64,000 nucleotides of DNA from Cyclobacterium sp. (GTDB lineage: Bacteria > Bacteroidota > Bacteroidia > Cytophagales > Cyclobacteriaceae), in contig NZ_JABURL010000123.1 of assembly GCF_014762705.1 (NCBI RefSeq), positions 1 through 64,000 of the forward strand. The letters are read 5' to 3'. The position numbers and the translations under genes were made by a program. The notes beneath the pieces are model-generated. The model was not told the origin of the DNA. It worked only from the letters and a program-made list of their open reading frames with translations, and ran no database searches. Shown here one piece after another: positions 3,136 to 63,427 of the stretch (position 1 is the stretch's first letter; every line of letters starts with the position of its first letter).

Positions 3136-4380
3136 TTATTCATAACGCAATGATTCTATGGGGTCCAATCGGCTGGCTTTGTAGGCGGGTAACATCCCGG
3201 AAAACAAGCCCACCAAAACACATACGACAAAGGCAAAAATTATCCAGACCCATGGAATCAAAAAACCTCCAGGACCCACTGAATTCCCTACCAGATTTCC
3301 GATACCGATCCCCATTAATACTCCCAAAATTCCTCCAAGAACACAGATCACTATGGCTTCTATCAGAAATTGCTGTCTAATCCGCTGAGGCGTCGCTCCC
3401 AGGGCCTTTCGGATCCCGATTTCCCTTGTTCTTTCGGTTACGGATACCAACATGATATTCATCAGGCCAATGGCTGCCCCGAGCAAAGTGATAAACCCGA
3501 TGCCAAAGCCCCCGATCCTGAGAAATCCTGCGATCTCCTCCAAACTTTCTCCCAGGGTTTGGGATTTTACCACTTCAAAGGAATCCTCCATACCAATGGC
3601 ATCCTCACGGATGGAACGCATGATGCCTGTTGCCTGCCCCATTTCATAATCAAGTTTCAACGGGTCTTTTCCTGCCACCGTGATGGTATACCGAAAGGTG
3701 CCTCTTTGATCCAGGTTTCTCGCATTGAGGATGGGAATGACAATGGCCCTGTCTGCACCTGAATCTCCACCTACCCCTCCTTGTTTTTCCATGACGCCCA
3801 CAATCGTGTAGCGCCTGCCAAAAAAAGAGATGTAATTTCCTATGGGATTTTCCCCCTTATCGAACAAAGTACTTTGGATCTCTGTACCTATCACACAGAC
3901 ATTGTTCCCATATTGAATTTCTATGTTACTGAAATTCCTGCCTTCTTCAATACTTATTCCTTTGATCAAAAAGTAATTTTCATCCCCTCCAATGATCCGG
4001 CTATTGGGATTGGTTTCTTTGGATCCTCTTTTTACCTCAGCCGAGCCTGTCACAGAAGTGGTGATGGTGGATAAACCCCATTCGCTGTATTTGTCTTTAA
4101 AAGCCTCCGAATCCCTGTATGATATATTTGGATAATTTTTTGGCGCAACCCCGGAGGTGGTAGCCCTTCCTCCAGAGAATCTTTTGCCCCGCACATCAAA
4201 ATTATTTGCGCCAAACCCGGAAAGACTTTCCTCAATCTGGGCCTTCATGGCATCTATTGCCGTCAACATGCCTACCAGGGAAGTAATGCCTATAGCAATG
4301 ATCAAACCAGTCAAAATTGTCCGTAATAGATTGGTTTTTACCGACCGGAAGGCCTCACGTATATTTTCGATCAAATTCAT
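3136..4380 (-). CDS. ABC transporter permease, MacB/FtsX type
   Basis: N-terminal TM plus MacB-PCD-like domain and C-terminal FtsX domain ([31 protein letters not shown]). Confidence 0.92.
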
Positions 4381-4492: not shown

Positions 4493-5110
4493 TTAATGCA
4501 TCCGGTCTCCCCTGATAGCCAAATGCTCCATCACTCCTTTTTCAAAGGCCAGCCATTCTGCCCAGCGTTGATCCACCTTGCCCGGATCATTATAGGATTT
4601 TGCCAGTTGTATGAAATTTACGTAATGACCGGCTTCGGAAATCATCAATTCGTGATAAAACTGTTTCAACTCCTCATCGGCCAGATTTTTCCAAAGAATT
4701 TTGAAACGCTCACAGGAGCGGGCCTCAATCAGCGCATTCATCAGCAAATGCTCCGTCAATTGGTCTGTCCTGCTACCGCCCTTCCGCACAAAACTTTGCA
4801 ACTGCAGCACATATTCATCCTTTCTGGGGAATCCAAATTTATACCCCCGCTTTCGGATTTGCTCCATGACTGATTCAAAATGCGCCCACTCCTCAGCAAC
4901 TACAGGAACAAGAACATCCACCATCCGGTCATATTCCGGGAATTTGATAATCAGGGAAATGCAGGAGGAAGCTGCTTTCTGTTCGCAATAGGCATGATCC
5001 ACCAATATCTCTTCCAGGCTCATTTTCGCTACATCCACCCAGCGGGGATCGGTGGGCAATTGTAGCCGCAACATTTTTTGCTTTGTCGATTCCTGCCAAT
5101 CCATATTCAA
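4493..5110 (-). CDS. miaE: tRNA-(ms[2]io[6]A)-hydroxylase
   Basis: Di-iron ferritin-like pattern (DHAYCEQKAASSCISL, EEWAHFE, EARSCERFK, SEAGHYVNF) typical of MiaE. Confidence 0.9.
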   Translation of the reverse strand: MNMDWQESTKQKMLRLQLPTDPRWVDVAKMSLEEILVDHAYCEQKAASSCISLIIKFPEYDRMVDVLVPVVAEEWAHFESVMEQIRKRGYKFGFPRKDEYVLQLQSFVRKGGSRTDQLTEHLLMNALIEARSCERFKILWKNLADEELKQFYHELMISEAGHYVNFIQLAKSYNDPGKVDQRWAEWLAFEKGVMEHLAIRGDRMH

Positions 5111-25317: not shown

Positions 25318-25885
25318 GTGCGACAAGAAGTCGCTTTGATAACTGTTTAACGTTCCATGAACGATTAAACCTTGTGTTCCATCACAAGTAGCCTATGGAC
25401 ACGTGCATTTCTGGTAACGGAATTGTGCGAAGCTATCCGGACAATATAGCCCGTAAAGAGATTCTGCTAAGAATGTCTGTTGCGCACCAACGTCAGGTGC
25501 GGGGGAGTATTGGGTATGGTCAACATACGTGAACTGCTGATAAATGTCGTGACGTGTAGACAGCGAAAGACGTTGACAGGCTGTGACTAAAGCGGTCTGC
25601 CTGGCAGGCTTTGCGGTGTCTGCTACATGGATTTCAATTTTCCCGGCAAAGAGGCAGGATCAAAACCCTCCTATCATCTAATCGTAACTTGGTAAGTACT
25701 CCGAGACAGCTTGCCCCAACACCTCCTGGCGATCCCCAAGCTAAGGGATACAGAAATTCGGCACAGGCTACTGATGGGGATTAGTACAGGCTTTCACCCG
25801 TTGGAACGGTCAACTTTTTGACCTATATTCACCATTCAAGGCACACACATTGGCTTGAGTACAGCGGGAAGGAAGCGAATAAAAT
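25318..25885 (+). mobile_element. Group II intron 5' fragment (domains I-III and start of IV), no reverse transcriptase ORF
   Basis: 5' GTGCGAC boundary-like motif and bacterial group II intron RNA pattern (GCGAAGCTATCCGGACAATATAGCCCGTAAAGAGATTCTGCTAAGAATG ... GAAATTCGGCACAGGCTACTGATGGGGATTAGTACAGGCTTTCACCCGTTGGAACGG ... GAGTACAGCGGGAAGGAAGCGAA); no ORF or recognisable domain V follows. Confidence 0.7.
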
Positions 25886-33973: not shown

Positions 33974-34004
33974 TTTGTCGATGCAAAAATTTTATTTACC
34001 TTTG
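33974..34004 (+). promoter_or_regulatory. Bacteroidota-type promoter of the SRP RNA
   Basis: TTTG (33974-33977), 19-nt spacer, TACCTTTG (33997-34004), matching the TTTG/TAnnTTTG consensus immediately before the RNA. Confidence 0.75.
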
Positions 34005-34009
34005 TCATG

Positions 34010-34098
34010 AGCGGCACGACCAGCTCCTGCTAAATCCCCCAGGTCCGGAAGGAAGCAAGGGTAGGCGGTTGTAGCGGTGCGATGCCGCTTATTTTTTT
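34010..34098 (+). ncRNA. ffs: Signal recognition particle RNA, small bacterial type
   Basis: Domain IV core CCCCCAGGTCCGGAAGGAAGCAAGGGTAGG; ends pair (AGCGGCA...TGCCGCT) and are followed by a T run. Confidence 0.93.
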
Positions 34099-36808: not shown

Positions 36809-37681
36809 TCATTTCTTTCCCTTCCTTTTCTCTTCCATGGCATCCCACCATTCATTTTTGATGGAACTCAAGCCATTGAACTGGCCTGCACCCTGAAGCC
36901 ATTCACCACCATCGATGGTAATGATTTCGCCATTGATAAAAGCCGAATATGGAGAGATCAAATAAGCAGCCAGGTTGGCCAATTCCTGATGTTCCCCTAC
37001 CCTTTCCAGCGGAACTCTTCTTGCAGGATTAAATTTATCTGCAAGTTCCCCGGGCAATAGTCGCTGCCAGGCTCCTTCGGTTGGAAAGGGGCCGGGAGCA
37101 ATGGCATTGCTCCGAATACCATAAGGAGCCCACTCTACGGCCAAAGAGCGGGTCATGGCCAAAACACCGGCTTTTGCCGCTGCACTGGGCACCACAAAAG
37201 CAGAACCGGTAAAGGCATAGGTGGTCACAATATTCAGGAAGGTCCCTGCTTCCTTTTCCCTGATCCATTCTCTTCCTGCCACCAGGGTAAGATTTGCTGA
37301 TCCTTTTAGAACAATATCCAGGATGGTATGAAAGGCATTAGCAGAAAGCCTCTCCGTCGGAGAAATGAAATTAGCGGCAGCATTGTTGACCACCACATCA
37401 ACTTTACCGTAATGCTGCCTGGCTTTCCCATACATTTCTTCCACCTGATCATAATCCCTCACGTCACAAGCCAAAGGCAACAGGTCCCCTCCGGTTTGTT
37501 CCCTCAATTTATCCGCTGTCTTTTCCAGAACTTCCATTTTCCGGCTACTGATGACCAGCCTCGCCCCGAGGGTCAGAAAATACCTGGCCATGGATTTTCC
37601 CAATCCCGTGCCCCCACCGGTTACCAGGACTACCTGATCCTTTAGCGCATCGGCCACCAACATCCCTTGATTATATTTCAT
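36809..37681 (-). CDS. SDR family oxidoreductase (2,4-dienoyl-CoA reductase-like)
   Basis: VVLVTGGGTGLGKSMARYF; VVNNAAANFISPTERLS; GEIITIDGGEWL. Confidence 0.93.
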   Translation of the reverse strand: MKYNQGMLVADALKDQVVLVTGGGTGLGKSMARYFLTLGARLVISSRKMEVLEKTADKLREQTGGDLLPLACDVRDYDQVEEMYGKARQHYGKVDVVVNNAAANFISPTERLSANAFHTILDIVLKGSANLTLVAGREWIREKEAGTFLNIVTTYAFTGSAFVVPSAAAKAGVLAMTRSLAVEWAPYGIRSNAIAPGPFPTEGAWQRLLPGELADKFNPARRVPLERVGEHQELANLAAYLISPYSAFINGEIITIDGGEWLQGAGQFNGLSSIKNEWWDAMEEKRKGKK

Positions 37682-37906
37682 CTGTTTATAATTTGTTTTT
37701 AATAGGCCGCATGCCTGCCTGTAGACAGACAGGGAATCTTTGACGATTAAAATAATCTTTGCCCGGTGTGTTTAATGATGATTTTAATCGTGTCGATTTC
37801 ATGTGTTTATAATTGTTTTATATAGCCATAACTTGTCCCGCACCGTAGGTCGGGATGCTTGTCTTTCGGGGAGATTCTCGCATTTTGCCCCGAACCCTAT
37901 CGGGGC
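37676..37906 (-). repeat. Dispersed 5'-leader repeat, copies B (37797-37906) and partial B' (37676-37705)
   Basis: Minus-strand CGGGACAAGTTATGGCTATATAAAACAATTATAAACACATGAAA (copy B) and CCTATTAAAAACAAATTATAAACAGATGAAA (B'); related to 54386-54484 and 62093-62173. Confidence 0.7.
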
Positions 37907-38076
37907 ATCCGGCTCTTCGTGCCTTGCGACATCCCTGATTTCATAAGCTTGCGGTATTTAGGCAAACTTATTTTTAAAATACGTAATTTTATGATCAATC
38001 AAATGATTGGGTTAAAGTTTATTTATCTTTGGCCGATTAACTGATTAGGAAACACCCGAAAAATGTCACGTTTCTC

Positions 38077-53392: not shown

Positions 53393-54391
53393 TCAGTCTA
53401 TTTTCAAAACCAACTTTCCTAACTGCTGGCTGTTTTTCATTTTATCAAAGGCAGGCACAGCATTTTTCAGAGAAAATACTTCGTCTACAAGGGGAATGAT
53501 TTTATGAAGCGTTACCCATTCCAGCATCTTTTTAAAATCTAAATCAGACCCCATGGTGGAGCCTTGTATGTTCAGCTGTTTCCAGAATATTTTACGGGCA
53601 TCAATTTCACCAGGATTTCCCAAAGTGGCTCCATAGACTACAATCCTTCCTCCTGGTCTGGCCACTTCGATTAAATCATTCAATGTGTTTCCCATGGCAC
53701 TGTCTATAATAAGGTCAAAACCCATTTCGGCAGTTTTAGCTTCATTGACCCAATCTGCTTTATAGTTATATCCGGCTCCAACGCCCATTTCGAGGGCTTT
53801 TTCAAGTTTCCAGTGCTCACCACTGCTCACGCTGACTTTTGCTCCGGAACTCAGGGCAATCTGAACGGCCATTTGGGCTACCCCTCCTCCAAAACCAGTC
53901 ACCAATACCTTGTCTTCCTTATGCAAATGTCCCTGGTAGACCAGGGCCCGGAACGCTGTTAGTCCTGCCAATGGTAAAGCCGCTGCCTGAAAATCATCCA
54001 AATGGGAGGGTTTTTCGTGAACCCTGTCCATTTTTACACAAATATATTCGGCCAGGGTTCCATGATTGGGCATACCCAGAATACTGAAATCAGCTCCCTG
54101 GGCGGATGGATTATTCCCCCAATTATTGGCAGGGTTTATTAACACTTCTTTTCCTATCCAATCCGGATCTACCCCTTTTCCTGCTTCTACAACTGTTCCG
54201 CTTCCATCCGAACCCAAAATAATACCGTCCTTTAAATTGGGATATTTCCCTTGCCTGCACCATTGATCTCTATGGTTCAAGGCTGCAGCTTTTATTTTTA
54301 TTTTAATTTCCTGCCGACCCGGAACTGGTTCTTTTAAATCCACCAGGGAAATCCCTTCGGGGTGATTACTATTTAAAACGATACACTTCAT
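53393..54391 (-). CDS. Zinc-binding alcohol dehydrogenase family protein
   Basis: MDR fold: LNHRDQWCRQGKYP, ILGSDGSGTVVEAGKG, VLVTGFGGGVAQMAVQIA. Confidence 0.93.
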   Translation of the reverse strand: MKCIVLNSNHPEGISLVDLKEPVPGRQEIKIKIKAAALNHRDQWCRQGKYPNLKDGIILGSDGSGTVVEAGKGVDPDWIGKEVLINPANNWGNNPSAQGADFSILGMPNHGTLAEYICVKMDRVHEKPSHLDDFQAAALPLAGLTAFRALVYQGHLHKEDKVLVTGFGGGVAQMAVQIALSSGAKVSVSSGEHWKLEKALEMGVGAGYNYKADWVNEAKTAEMGFDLIIDSAMGNTLNDLIEVARPGGRIVVYGATLGNPGEIDARKIFWKQLNIQGSTMGSDLDFKKMLEWVTLHKIIPLVDEVFSLKNAVPAFDKMKNSQQLGKLVLKID

Positions 54392-54484
54392 CTGTTTATA
54401 TTTTGATTTTCTAAGGTCGAAACTGGACTGGCACCGAAGGTTCCTGTTCTTTGGGAGAATCTCGCACCTTCCGGCAGGAAGGTG
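54386..54484 (-). repeat. Dispersed 5'-leader repeat, copy C
   Basis: Minus-strand CACCTTCC-tgcc-GGAAGGTG hairpin then TGCGAGATTCTCCC ... CCTTAGAAAATCAAAATATAAACAGATGAAG at the ADH start. Confidence 0.65.
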
Positions 54485-54659
54485 ATTATAATCATCTCGC
54501 TGTTTGTCCCCTTCAACACGTTCGATTTCTTAATATAAGAACTTTCTTTCAATTCAGGTCGATTGGTGCATCCCGTTCCATAGAGACAACAGCGCAAGGC
54601 TGAAAGCTGTCTATTGCTTTAAAGATTCAATTTCAGGGATTTAAATATTTTGCCAATAT

Positions 54660-60964: not shown

Positions 60965-62047
60965 ATGTTTAAAATCTCTCAAATTACTATTTTCAGCTTG
61001 CTGGTCATCTTTATTTCCTGCTCTACTTCCACTGAAAAAATTACTCCCAACAGGCAAAATATCAGCCTTTCGGTTTATGCTTCAGGAAAAGTATTGAGCA
61101 AAAATCAATATGAGGTACAGCCAAATGGTAGTGGATACATCCAAAAAATCTTTGTCAGCGAGGGCGATATTGTAAATAAGGGGGATATTTTGTTTTCTTT
61201 GTCCAATGAGGCCACCGAACTGAACCAGGACATGGCCAGCCTCTCCAAATCATTTGCGGAAAAGGAAAACAACACCGCAAGGCTGAAAGATTTGGAGGTA
61301 AAAATAAAACTGGCTCAGGAAAAAATGACCCATGACTCCTTATTATGGGAAAGACAAAAAAAACTGCATGACAAAGGAATTGGGACAAATCTTGACCTTG
61401 AACAGCGGCTGTTGCAGTATTCCCAATCCGAAACGGAACTCAAAGCCCTGCAACTTAACCAGGAAACCCTGATCAGGGAAATCGAATTCAATGCTGAAAA
61501 TGCTCAAAAAAACTTTGAAATAGCCAGTTCCCTGGCGAATGATTTGGAAATTAAGAGTAAAATAGATGGAAAGGTTTACTCCCTTTTGAAAGAGACAGGT
61601 GAACTAGTGAACCAACAAAGCAAACTTGCCGTGTTGGGTAATGGGGAGGAGTTCATATTAGAGCTTTTGGTAGACGAATATGACATTGCTCAAATCAAGG
61701 CGGGGCAGAAAATTAAAATCAACATGGATAGTTACCGTGGAGAAGTCTTTGATGCTACCGTTACCAAAATCCATCCCATTATGGATGACAAAACCAAAAG
61801 TTTTGTTGTTGAAGCTGAGTTCACCAACTCTCCCCCGCAGTTGTACCCCAATTTGACTTTGGAGGCTAACATTATCCTTCAAACAAAAGAAAATGCCCTT
61901 CTGATTCCGTCTTCCTATCTGATTCAGGATCAGTATGTCATCAATATCGAAGGAGACACCGTTGGAGTCAAAACCGGCATTAAAAACTACCAAAATACAG
62001 AAATATTAAGTGGAATTGAAGAAACAACTGAATTGATTAAACCTTAA
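60965..62047 (+). CDS. HlyD/MacA-like periplasmic adaptor lipoprotein
   Basis: LVIFISCSTST lipobox; EVQPNGSGYIQKIFVSEGDIVNKGDILFSL; coiled coil; ELLVDEYDIAQIKAGQKIKINMDSY. Confidence 0.92.
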   Translation: MFKISQITIFSLLVIFISCSTSTEKITPNRQNISLSVYASGKVLSKNQYEVQPNGSGYIQKIFVSEGDIVNKGDILFSLSNEATELNQDMASLSKSFAEKENNTARLKDLEVKIKLAQEKMTHDSLLWERQKKLHDKGIGTNLDLEQRLLQYSQSETELKALQLNQETLIREIEFNAENAQKNFEIASSLANDLEIKSKIDGKVYSLLKETGELVNQQSKLAVLGNGEEFILELLVDEYDIAQIKAGQKIKINMDSYRGEVFDATVTKIHPIMDDKTKSFVVEAEFTNSPPQLYPNLTLEANIILQTKENALLIPSSYLIQDQYVINIEGDTVGVKTGIKNYQNTEILSGIEETTELIKP

Positions 62048-62092
62048 AATCTGGCAGAAAGATCCTGTAAAAACAAGGGGCAATTATTCATC

Positions 62093-62173
62093 ATCCGAGA
62101 TTTTTCCGAGTGTCGGAATCCTTCAGTACAGGACAAGTTATGGCCTTAGAAAACAAATTATAAACACATGAAA
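62093..62173 (+). repeat. Dispersed 5'-leader repeat, copy A
   Basis: AGGACAAGTTATGGCCTTAGAAAACAAATTATAAACACATGAAA ending at the permease start; matches minus-strand copy B at 37797-37906. Confidence 0.7.
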
Positions 62174-63427
62174 TTCGGTTTATTACTGGAAATAGCCCAA
62201 AAACTCATGCTTGCCAGGTTCAAACAAACACTGGTCGCCGCTGTAGGAGTAACTTTTAGTATTACCATGTTTGTGGCACTTTTAGGCTTTATGAATGGTT
62301 TAAACATGATGCTGGATGGATTGGTACTGAACAGAACACCTCATATCCGCTTTTACAATGAAATCAAGCCAAACCCCAACCAACCTGTTGACATGTCTGA
62401 TACCTATAGCAGCTATAACAATACCATCAGGTCCATCAAACCCAACAGCAGCCGCAAAAGTATCTATAACAGTACTGCCATGATCCATACCTTGCTAAAC
62501 GATGAGCGGGTTTTGGGAGTAGCCCCAAAAGTAAACACCCAGGTGTTTTACAACATCGGAAACATAGATATAACGGGATCCATAAATGGAATCGATGTAG
62601 ATGCAGAAAATGCACTTTTTAGTTTTGAAGATTATGTCACTGCAGGAAACAGCGATGACCTGAAAAACATCAATAACAGCATCATATTGGGCAAAGGTGC
62701 CGCCGACCGCATGCTGGCCCAGATTGGGGATGTGATTCAGGCCACTACGGCCCAAGGGAATACCGTACGATTAAAGGTGGTGGGATATTATCAATCTGGT
62801 TTAGGTGACCTGGACAATGTACAAAGTTATACATCCCTGGAAACGGCCCAAAAAATATTGGGCGAACCTCCTTCATTTATTACGGACATACAGGTAAAGT
62901 TGAAATCACTGGAACTGGCCCCTTCCATGGCCATCGATTATGGGAATTTATTTGAGATAAAAGCAGATGACATACAAACCGTCAATGCACAGTTTGAAAC
63001 CGGCACAGAAATAAGAAACCTAATCAGCTATGCGGTTGGCATTACCCTGCTTATCGTTTCAGGATTTGGGATTTACAATATTCTGAACATGATGATTTAT
63101 GAAAAAATGGATACCATAGCTATATTAAAGGCTACAGGGTTTTCAGGAAGAGATGTAAACATCGTTTTTACCCTGATCGCTCTGATCATTGGAATAGTGG
63201 GTGGAGCGGTAGGATTAATCTTAGGTTATCTGGCAGGAATGGGCATTGATCAACTCCCCTTTGAAACTGAGGCCTTACCCACCATCAAGACATTCCCTGT
63301 AGACTTTAATCCCCGGTATTACATTATTGGTGGTGTTTTTAGTTTGTTGACCACTTACATGGCCGGTTATTTCCCGGCTAAAAAAGCGAGCAGTGTAGAT
63401 CCGGTAGAAATCATAAGAGGAAAATAA
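62168..63427 (+). CDS. ABC transporter permease (MacB/DevC-like)
   Basis: FtsX domain IYNILNMMIYEKMDTIAILKATGFSGRDVNIVFTLIALIIGIVGG; between adaptor and ATPase genes. Confidence 0.93.
   Translation: MKFGLLLEIAQKLMLARFKQTLVAAVGVTFSITMFVALLGFMNGLNMMLDGLVLNRTPHIRFYNEIKPNPNQPVDMSDTYSSYNNTIRSIKPNSSRKSIYNSTAMIHTLLNDERVLGVAPKVNTQVFYNIGNIDITGSINGIDVDAENALFSFEDYVTAGNSDDLKNINNSIILGKGAADRMLAQIGDVIQATTAQGNTVRLKVVGYYQSGLGDLDNVQSYTSLETAQKILGEPPSFITDIQVKLKSLELAPSMAIDYGNLFEIKADDIQTVNAQFETGTEIRNLISYAVGITLLIVSGFGIYNILNMMIYEKMDTIAILKATGFSGRDVNIVFTLIALIIGIVGGAVGLILGYLAGMGIDQLPFETEALPTIKTFPVDFNPRYYIIGGVFSLLTTYMAGYFPAKKASSVDPVEIIRGK

Follow-up and report, generated by a model that had tools for sequence, protein, structure and literature searches.

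The leader repeat and its copies in the window

Why should unrelated genes share a leader that ends at their start codons? The question is raised by a 64-kb stretch of Cyclobacterium DNA (64,000 nt, here ‘the window’), where the first-pass annotation described three copies of a dispersed 5′-leader repeat and read them as a transposable or duplicated leader or regulatory cassette. The sequence strings that it quoted are all found in the window. The number of copies is, however, four: the repeat at 37.8 kb is a tandem pair, and the unit that had been missed is the one adjoining the real start of the SDR gene (Table 1). The extent given earlier for copy A, 62093–62173, was correct at its right end; the 5′ boundary, inferred from empty and filled orthologues, lies further left. 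The hairpin on the GGGACA side turned out to be an optional insertion, the constant parts being the element ends, and the proposed hairpin with the GGACAAGTTATGGC motif (exact at 62131 (+) and 37838 (−)) characterizes one sub-type only. The right-end motif AAAACAAATTATAAACASATGAAR has 0 mismatches at 62150 (+) and 37699 (−), two at 54409 (−) and three at 37820 (−); every match elsewhere in the window has at least six.

Table 1. Element copies and other features in the window
Feature	Position	Strand	Basis	Flanks and adjoining gene
Copy A, long sub-type, decayed 5′ part	about 62050..62173	+	Exact right end; body HMM match 62077–62173	Terminal ATGAAA is start codon and codon 2 of ABC permease gene 62168–63427 (+)
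Decayed left ATGAAA of copy A, now TTAAAA	62044..62049	+	Orthologue comparison; ORF list	Still provides the stop codon of the upstream gene (ORF 60965–62047)
Distal copy of tandem pair, long sub-type	37797..37938	−	Sequence; right part matched by HMM; orthologous copy in relative G005	Left ATGAAA at 37944–37939 (−)
Proximal copy of tandem pair, type B (TCGACACGATTAAAATCATC...)	37676..37796	−	HMM E=1.4e-25, full length 1–100 of 100	Terminal ATGAAA is start of SDR-family gene 37681–36809 (−)
Copy C, long sub-type, diverged	54386..54525	−	HMM match 54387–54525, model 1–90; also in G005	Terminal ATGAAG is start of alcohol-dehydrogenase-like gene 54391–53393 (−); left hexamer decayed to AAGAAA (54531–54526)
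Group II intron match	25370..25508	+	RF02012, 99.6 bits	
Bacteroidales small SRP RNA match	34002..34094	+	RF04183	

A large family of elements in Cyclobacteriaceae

The leader repeat is a member of a large family of protein-less mobile elements of the family Cyclobacteriaceae. The exact 16-base right end WTATAAACANATGAAR gave 49 matches in the 6.08-Mb genome against 0 for a control with the right-end pattern reversed; with up to three mismatches in 23 positions the counts were 128 and 4. A BLAST-type search with the body of one copy led to dozens of places in the genome. Further copies thus exist genome-wide, and their identity extends beyond an A/T-rich RBS spacer across the whole 90–140 bp body. 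Elements are about 87–140 bp long (lengths of 87–94 and 100–116 bp are common, and longer forms have extra hairpins); no copy has any protein coding capacity.

Eleven other genomes of the genus have 3–165 copies each, and two other Cyclobacteriaceae genera have 124 and 50 (right end with at most two mismatches, both strands). The tandem junctions with a named host come mostly from Cyclobacteriaceae (Cyclobacterium, Algoriphagus, Lunatibacter, Lunatimonas, Pleomorphovibrio and Mongoliibacter). Outside this family Maribellus gave one weak match, and a Flavobacteriales MAG, possibly mis-binned, has one tandem array. No family among the Rfam 15 covariance models matched over the elements. The element was absent from the sampled plasmids and phages, and viral contigs had no match to the body pattern; matches to the junction pattern in viral contigs looked like chance and had no element bodies. 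An uncultured Treponema contig (L168) has two copies, at 4178–4197 and 4840–4859, of an unrelated repeat containing TTATAAACAGATGAAATCGACTGTG without the element body.

Empty and filled sites

In four relatives (G001, G003, G006 and G007) the permease orthologue has no element, and its ATGAAR start overlaps the end of the upstream gene. The element lies between the two genes in the window genome (G000), in G005 and in G004, and what remains of the left hexamer still provides the stop codon of the upstream gene; in G004 the site reads CCATAAAATCGAGCC. The SDR gene site is free of the element in seven relatives (G001, G002, G003, G007, G008, G010 and G011). G000 and G005 have the distal copy of this site in common, while the proximal copy is of type B in G000 and of type A in G005.

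The DNA of G005 is about 96% identical to that of G000 over the window region. The comparison of orthologous sites covered 1.65 Mb of G005 and included six G000 copies: two sites were empty in G005 (pyrH and the L047 site), two had an element of another type and two copies were shared, one of them strongly diverged. The SDR site and L042 are places where the element type differs. Since so close a relative has both empty sites and different elements at the same site, the element is mobile. The idea of a transposable or duplicated leader is borne out by the empty sites of relatives, the tandem insertion and the large differences in copy number.

Element anatomy and predicted fold

Each element lies between two ATGAAA hexamers, in the layout host...ATGAAA/TCGAG...hairpins...TTATAAACANATGAAA/gene; it begins directly 3′ of one ATGAAA and its own right end is ATGAAA. 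Copies stack head-to-tail at this hexamer, and the ATGAAA of a tandem junction is common to both neighbours, which fixes both ends of the element. We distinguished three body types: A (TCGAGCATGACGnnnnCGTCACACACTGGGATGATTAT...CATGCGAGA), B (TCGACACGATTAAAATCATC...GATTTTAATCGTC) and C (TGCCCATGAGAA...TTCTCACACAGGGGGATGATTAT...GGGCA). Common to all three are GATTCCATNTGRCC and the right end AAAACAATTATAAACANATGAAA. Terminal inverted repeats are absent (TCGAGCATG... versus ...CACATGAAA or ...AAACACATGAAA); imperfect subterminal hairpins are conserved at both ends.

Some copies have been altered further. A second repeat family (GTATTAAAAATTGGCATTTACAGAAAGGAAATGACATT...) is inserted within element copies at L130, L189 and L207, near CACACAGA/GGGATGATTAT. 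In a type B copy at about 1556–1651 of L042 the loop of the hairpin has the opposite orientation to that in other copies, which would fit a flip between the arms of the palindrome.

In the RNAalifold prediction CATNTG pairs with the right-end CANATG. Among 155 short forms, the variable base N of the internal TTCCATNTG was complementary to N′ at the right end of the same element, CANATGAAA, in 134 (G-C 66, C-G 49, A-T 19), about 58 being expected from the table margins. Pairing across tandem copies was ruled out: of 97 cases in tandem arrays, N fits the right end of its own copy in 86 and that of the copy upstream in only 33. A match of N to the host base before the target was also rejected (only 12 of 67), so N serves the element's own right end. 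At the other end, the first element bases covary with the bases before TTCC (TC/GA, TG/CA, TA/TA); the left ATGAAA, the first hairpin and TTCCAT can therefore form one helix, ATGAAATC...GATTCCAT, with a constant A·C mismatch.

In an alignment in which the right end was joined to the left end, double-sided changes were found in 63 cells versus 21.4 (sd 4.3) after shuffling, and sliding the partners abolished the signal. The three body types keep the same fold, compensatory changes being present in three helices. Most of the outer helix does not vary, in part because sequences were selected by TTCCAT and ATGAAA; the information comes from the N/N′ columns, the TC/GA pair and both inner helices.

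The target hexamer

Host sequence left of the element has no motif other than ATGAAA. The left hexamer reads ATGAAA in 153 of 161 tandem copies and in 70 of 140 parsed non-tandem copies, much of the remainder being decayed or mis-parsed sub-types. Among copies found by body alone (‘unbiased’ copies), 22 of the 23 right ends of the form ATGAAN are ATGAAA, versus 64% of ATGAAN gene starts; a binomial calculation from the counts puts the probability of such an excess at about 5e-4. The sixth base belongs to the target site.

Strict targeting of start codons found no support, as 17 of 29 unbiased copies adjoin an ORF of at least 60 aa, near the ratio of start to non-start sites among non-coding ATGAAA (266:330). 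Since non-coding ATGAAA sites are used roughly in proportion, the target is the hexamer itself. None of the 29 unbiased copies interrupts a long ORF. Association with gene starts is largely what survives once harmful insertions have been removed, start codons being favoured because insertions there are harmless: the old start is left upstream and ATG AAA is recreated before the gene. A 6-bp target duplication and a retained target look the same here, both flanks being the same hexamer.

Proposed mechanism and candidate enzyme

The repeat is probably a hairpin element of the single-strand type that is non-autonomous, recognizes ATGAAA through base pairing and is moved by an enzyme acting in trans, most likely one of the HUH/Y1 type. 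Such an element would move as a folded single strand. TTCCAT would be the guide and would have two alternative partners: the left/target ATGAAA, in a helix continuous with the first hairpin, and the ATGAAA of the right end. This pairing would define both cleavage sites and the target. The chemistry would most likely be done by a trans-acting, IS200/IS605-like single-strand transposase, and the excised circle would carry the junction ...TTATAAACANATGAAATCGAG.... Survivors would be found mostly at gene starts, since the element brings a start codon and an A-rich initiation region there; copies inserted within genes would be lost.

An analogue is IS608, which has hairpin ends, guide–target base pairing and a circular junction, and which integrates on the 3′ side of a short target that stays in the left flank; base pairing decides which target IS608 chooses, and additional pairing 3′ of its left hairpin can extend that choice (PMC5934647). 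Like IS200/IS605 and their non-autonomous derivatives, the Cyclobacteriaceae element is inserted 3′ of a fixed short left-flank sequence, has subterminal hairpins and no inverted repeats, a right end that would be cut at a defined motif, predicted guide–target pairing and site-regenerating junctions that lead to stacking. Unlike them, it has a 6-nt target that is a start codon plus AAA, with identical left and right sites; it is only about 90–140 bp long, no tnpA/tnpB copy was found and it has been amplified family-wide to over 100 copies. In IS608 the guides lie 5′ of each hairpin, whereas the single shared guide TTCCAT lies 3′ of the first hairpin.

A Y1/HUH enzyme fits this anatomy best, as a candidate. 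None of the PF01797 (Y1) loci sampled from the genome and ten relatives carries element copies or ends. G000 has three Y1/RAYT-like genes (L061, L062 and L063, on C52, C6 and C84), each amid its own palindromic repeat family (GACCCCGTCGGGGTC, CCCTTTCAGGGCT and GGATTTGTAATCC types, unrelated to the element). We thus rejected Y1/RAYT as a linked mobiliser, these loci having other palindromes and no element ends. Among about 400 parsed copies we found no autonomous one with a gene between the ends, nor did 1.65 Mb of G005 or the sampled plasmids and phages contain any; left-end-only matches considered as such proved to be contig edges, runs of N or decayed copies.

The same element could instead have moved by another route, either with a 6-bp duplication produced by a recombinase or DNA transposase, or by an RNA/cDNA route in which the structured transcript is copied by reverse transcription and joined at ATGAAA. 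The identical hexamer on both flanks is what a duplication would give, the element probably lies within 5′ UTRs and folds as RNA, and the group II intron match in the window hints at a possible reverse transcriptase in the genome. We nevertheless consider such a route rather unlikely: there are no terminal inverted repeats, one fixed target hexamer matched by an internal guide sets the element apart from ordinary DDE transposition, and none of 44 relatives has an integron integrase (TIGR02249) over the curated cut-off, the enzyme that an integron attC cassette would call for.

Other small repeats share some of these traits. REP sequences (RAYT/TnpA-REP) are likewise short, high-copy intergenic hairpin repeats, and RAYT-like Y1 genes with REP-like palindromes are present in these genomes; the palindromes at the RAYT-like genes of G000 are, however, unrelated in sequence to the element, and REPs neither have defined ATGAAA flanks nor sit exactly at start codons. 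Rickettsia palindromic elements are mobile hairpin elements of about 100–150 bp that enter genes in-frame without killing them (PMC10969869). They resemble our element as small mobile hairpins that spare genes, but they add a peptide inside proteins, while ours lies ahead of the start codon, which it restores. MITEs and proposed mobile promoters are also small non-autonomous repeats altering the upstream regions of many unrelated genes; the present element differs in its strict hexamer target and its lack of inverted repeats, and none of 301 copies had a Bacteroidetes promoter motif. TAACTGA direct repeats of Beggiatoaceae, Cyanobacteria and some Bacteroidetes are found just upstream of the starts of unrelated genes, and the mechanism of their spread is not known (PMC4679880). 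Their placement is similar, but they are heptamer arrays without a structured 90-bp body or a hexamer target.

Effect on host genes

Insertion swaps the initiation region of a gene for an A-rich one and recreates ATG AAA. The promoter motif TTTG-N-TAnnTTTG (Bacteroidetes type, the only type searched for) was scored by its −7 part, TAnnTTTG, which occurs in 0 of 301 copies and 4 times in shuffles; we thus rejected a promoter cassette or mobile promoter. In 233 copies with an intact old ATG, the frame opened by this codon ends 7 nt short of the new ATG in 61 and overlaps it as ATGA in 50, or else stops earlier; in only one of the 233 does it run in-frame through the flank examined. A conserved leader peptide found no support, since type C has no open frame and in many copies frame 2 is open as well. 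An effect on translation is plausible: the AUG lies in a predicted hairpin that a ribosome on the leader ORF could open.

The repeat might then be seen as a cis-regulatory RNA (a switch or thermometer) spread by duplication. The stem CATNTG/CANATG would hide the AUG, the guide would alternatively pair with the old upstream AUG so that the two starts compete, and the leader ORF could open the stem and couple translation. The AUG-containing stem does covary, and the positions at which the leader frame ends, close before or overlapping the new ATG, would suit such coupling. We find this reading very improbable, since left ATGs decay and the guide pairing is gone from older copies, copy A among them; type C and the long forms have no open leader frame; and a pure RNA role leaves exact ATGAAA junctions and empty sites unexplained. 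The downstream genes have no obvious common function, and some copies are located at non-start ATGAAA. The description as a transposable leader cassette was essentially right, while the word ‘regulatory’ is unproven.

An ordinary likeness of A-rich Bacteroidetes translation-initiation regions, or chance, has a negligible probability: the last 25 bases are indeed A-rich and end at a start codon, but the counts over reversed-pattern controls, the 90–140 bp bodies with covarying stems and the exact empty sites stand against it.

Implications

No published description of the element was found in the literature searched (subscription journals were outside its reach). The element would belong to a known kind, the small non-autonomous elements of single-strand type. 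It may also represent an undescribed minimal mobile class, base-pair-programmed and start-resupplying, whose guide would pair with ATGAAA, the commonest start context here, and which would bring its own initiation region.

For annotation, the element accounts for spurious upstream ATGs and leader ORFs in Cyclobacteriaceae genomes. Its target-matching internal guide points to a possibly reprogrammable insertion system guided by base pairs. By targeting the start hexamer and returning it, a parasite can reach over 100 copies at gene starts without breaking genes. Its insertions replace translation-initiation regions and can part overlapping genes, as at the permease, so that expression may be rewired across a bacterial family.
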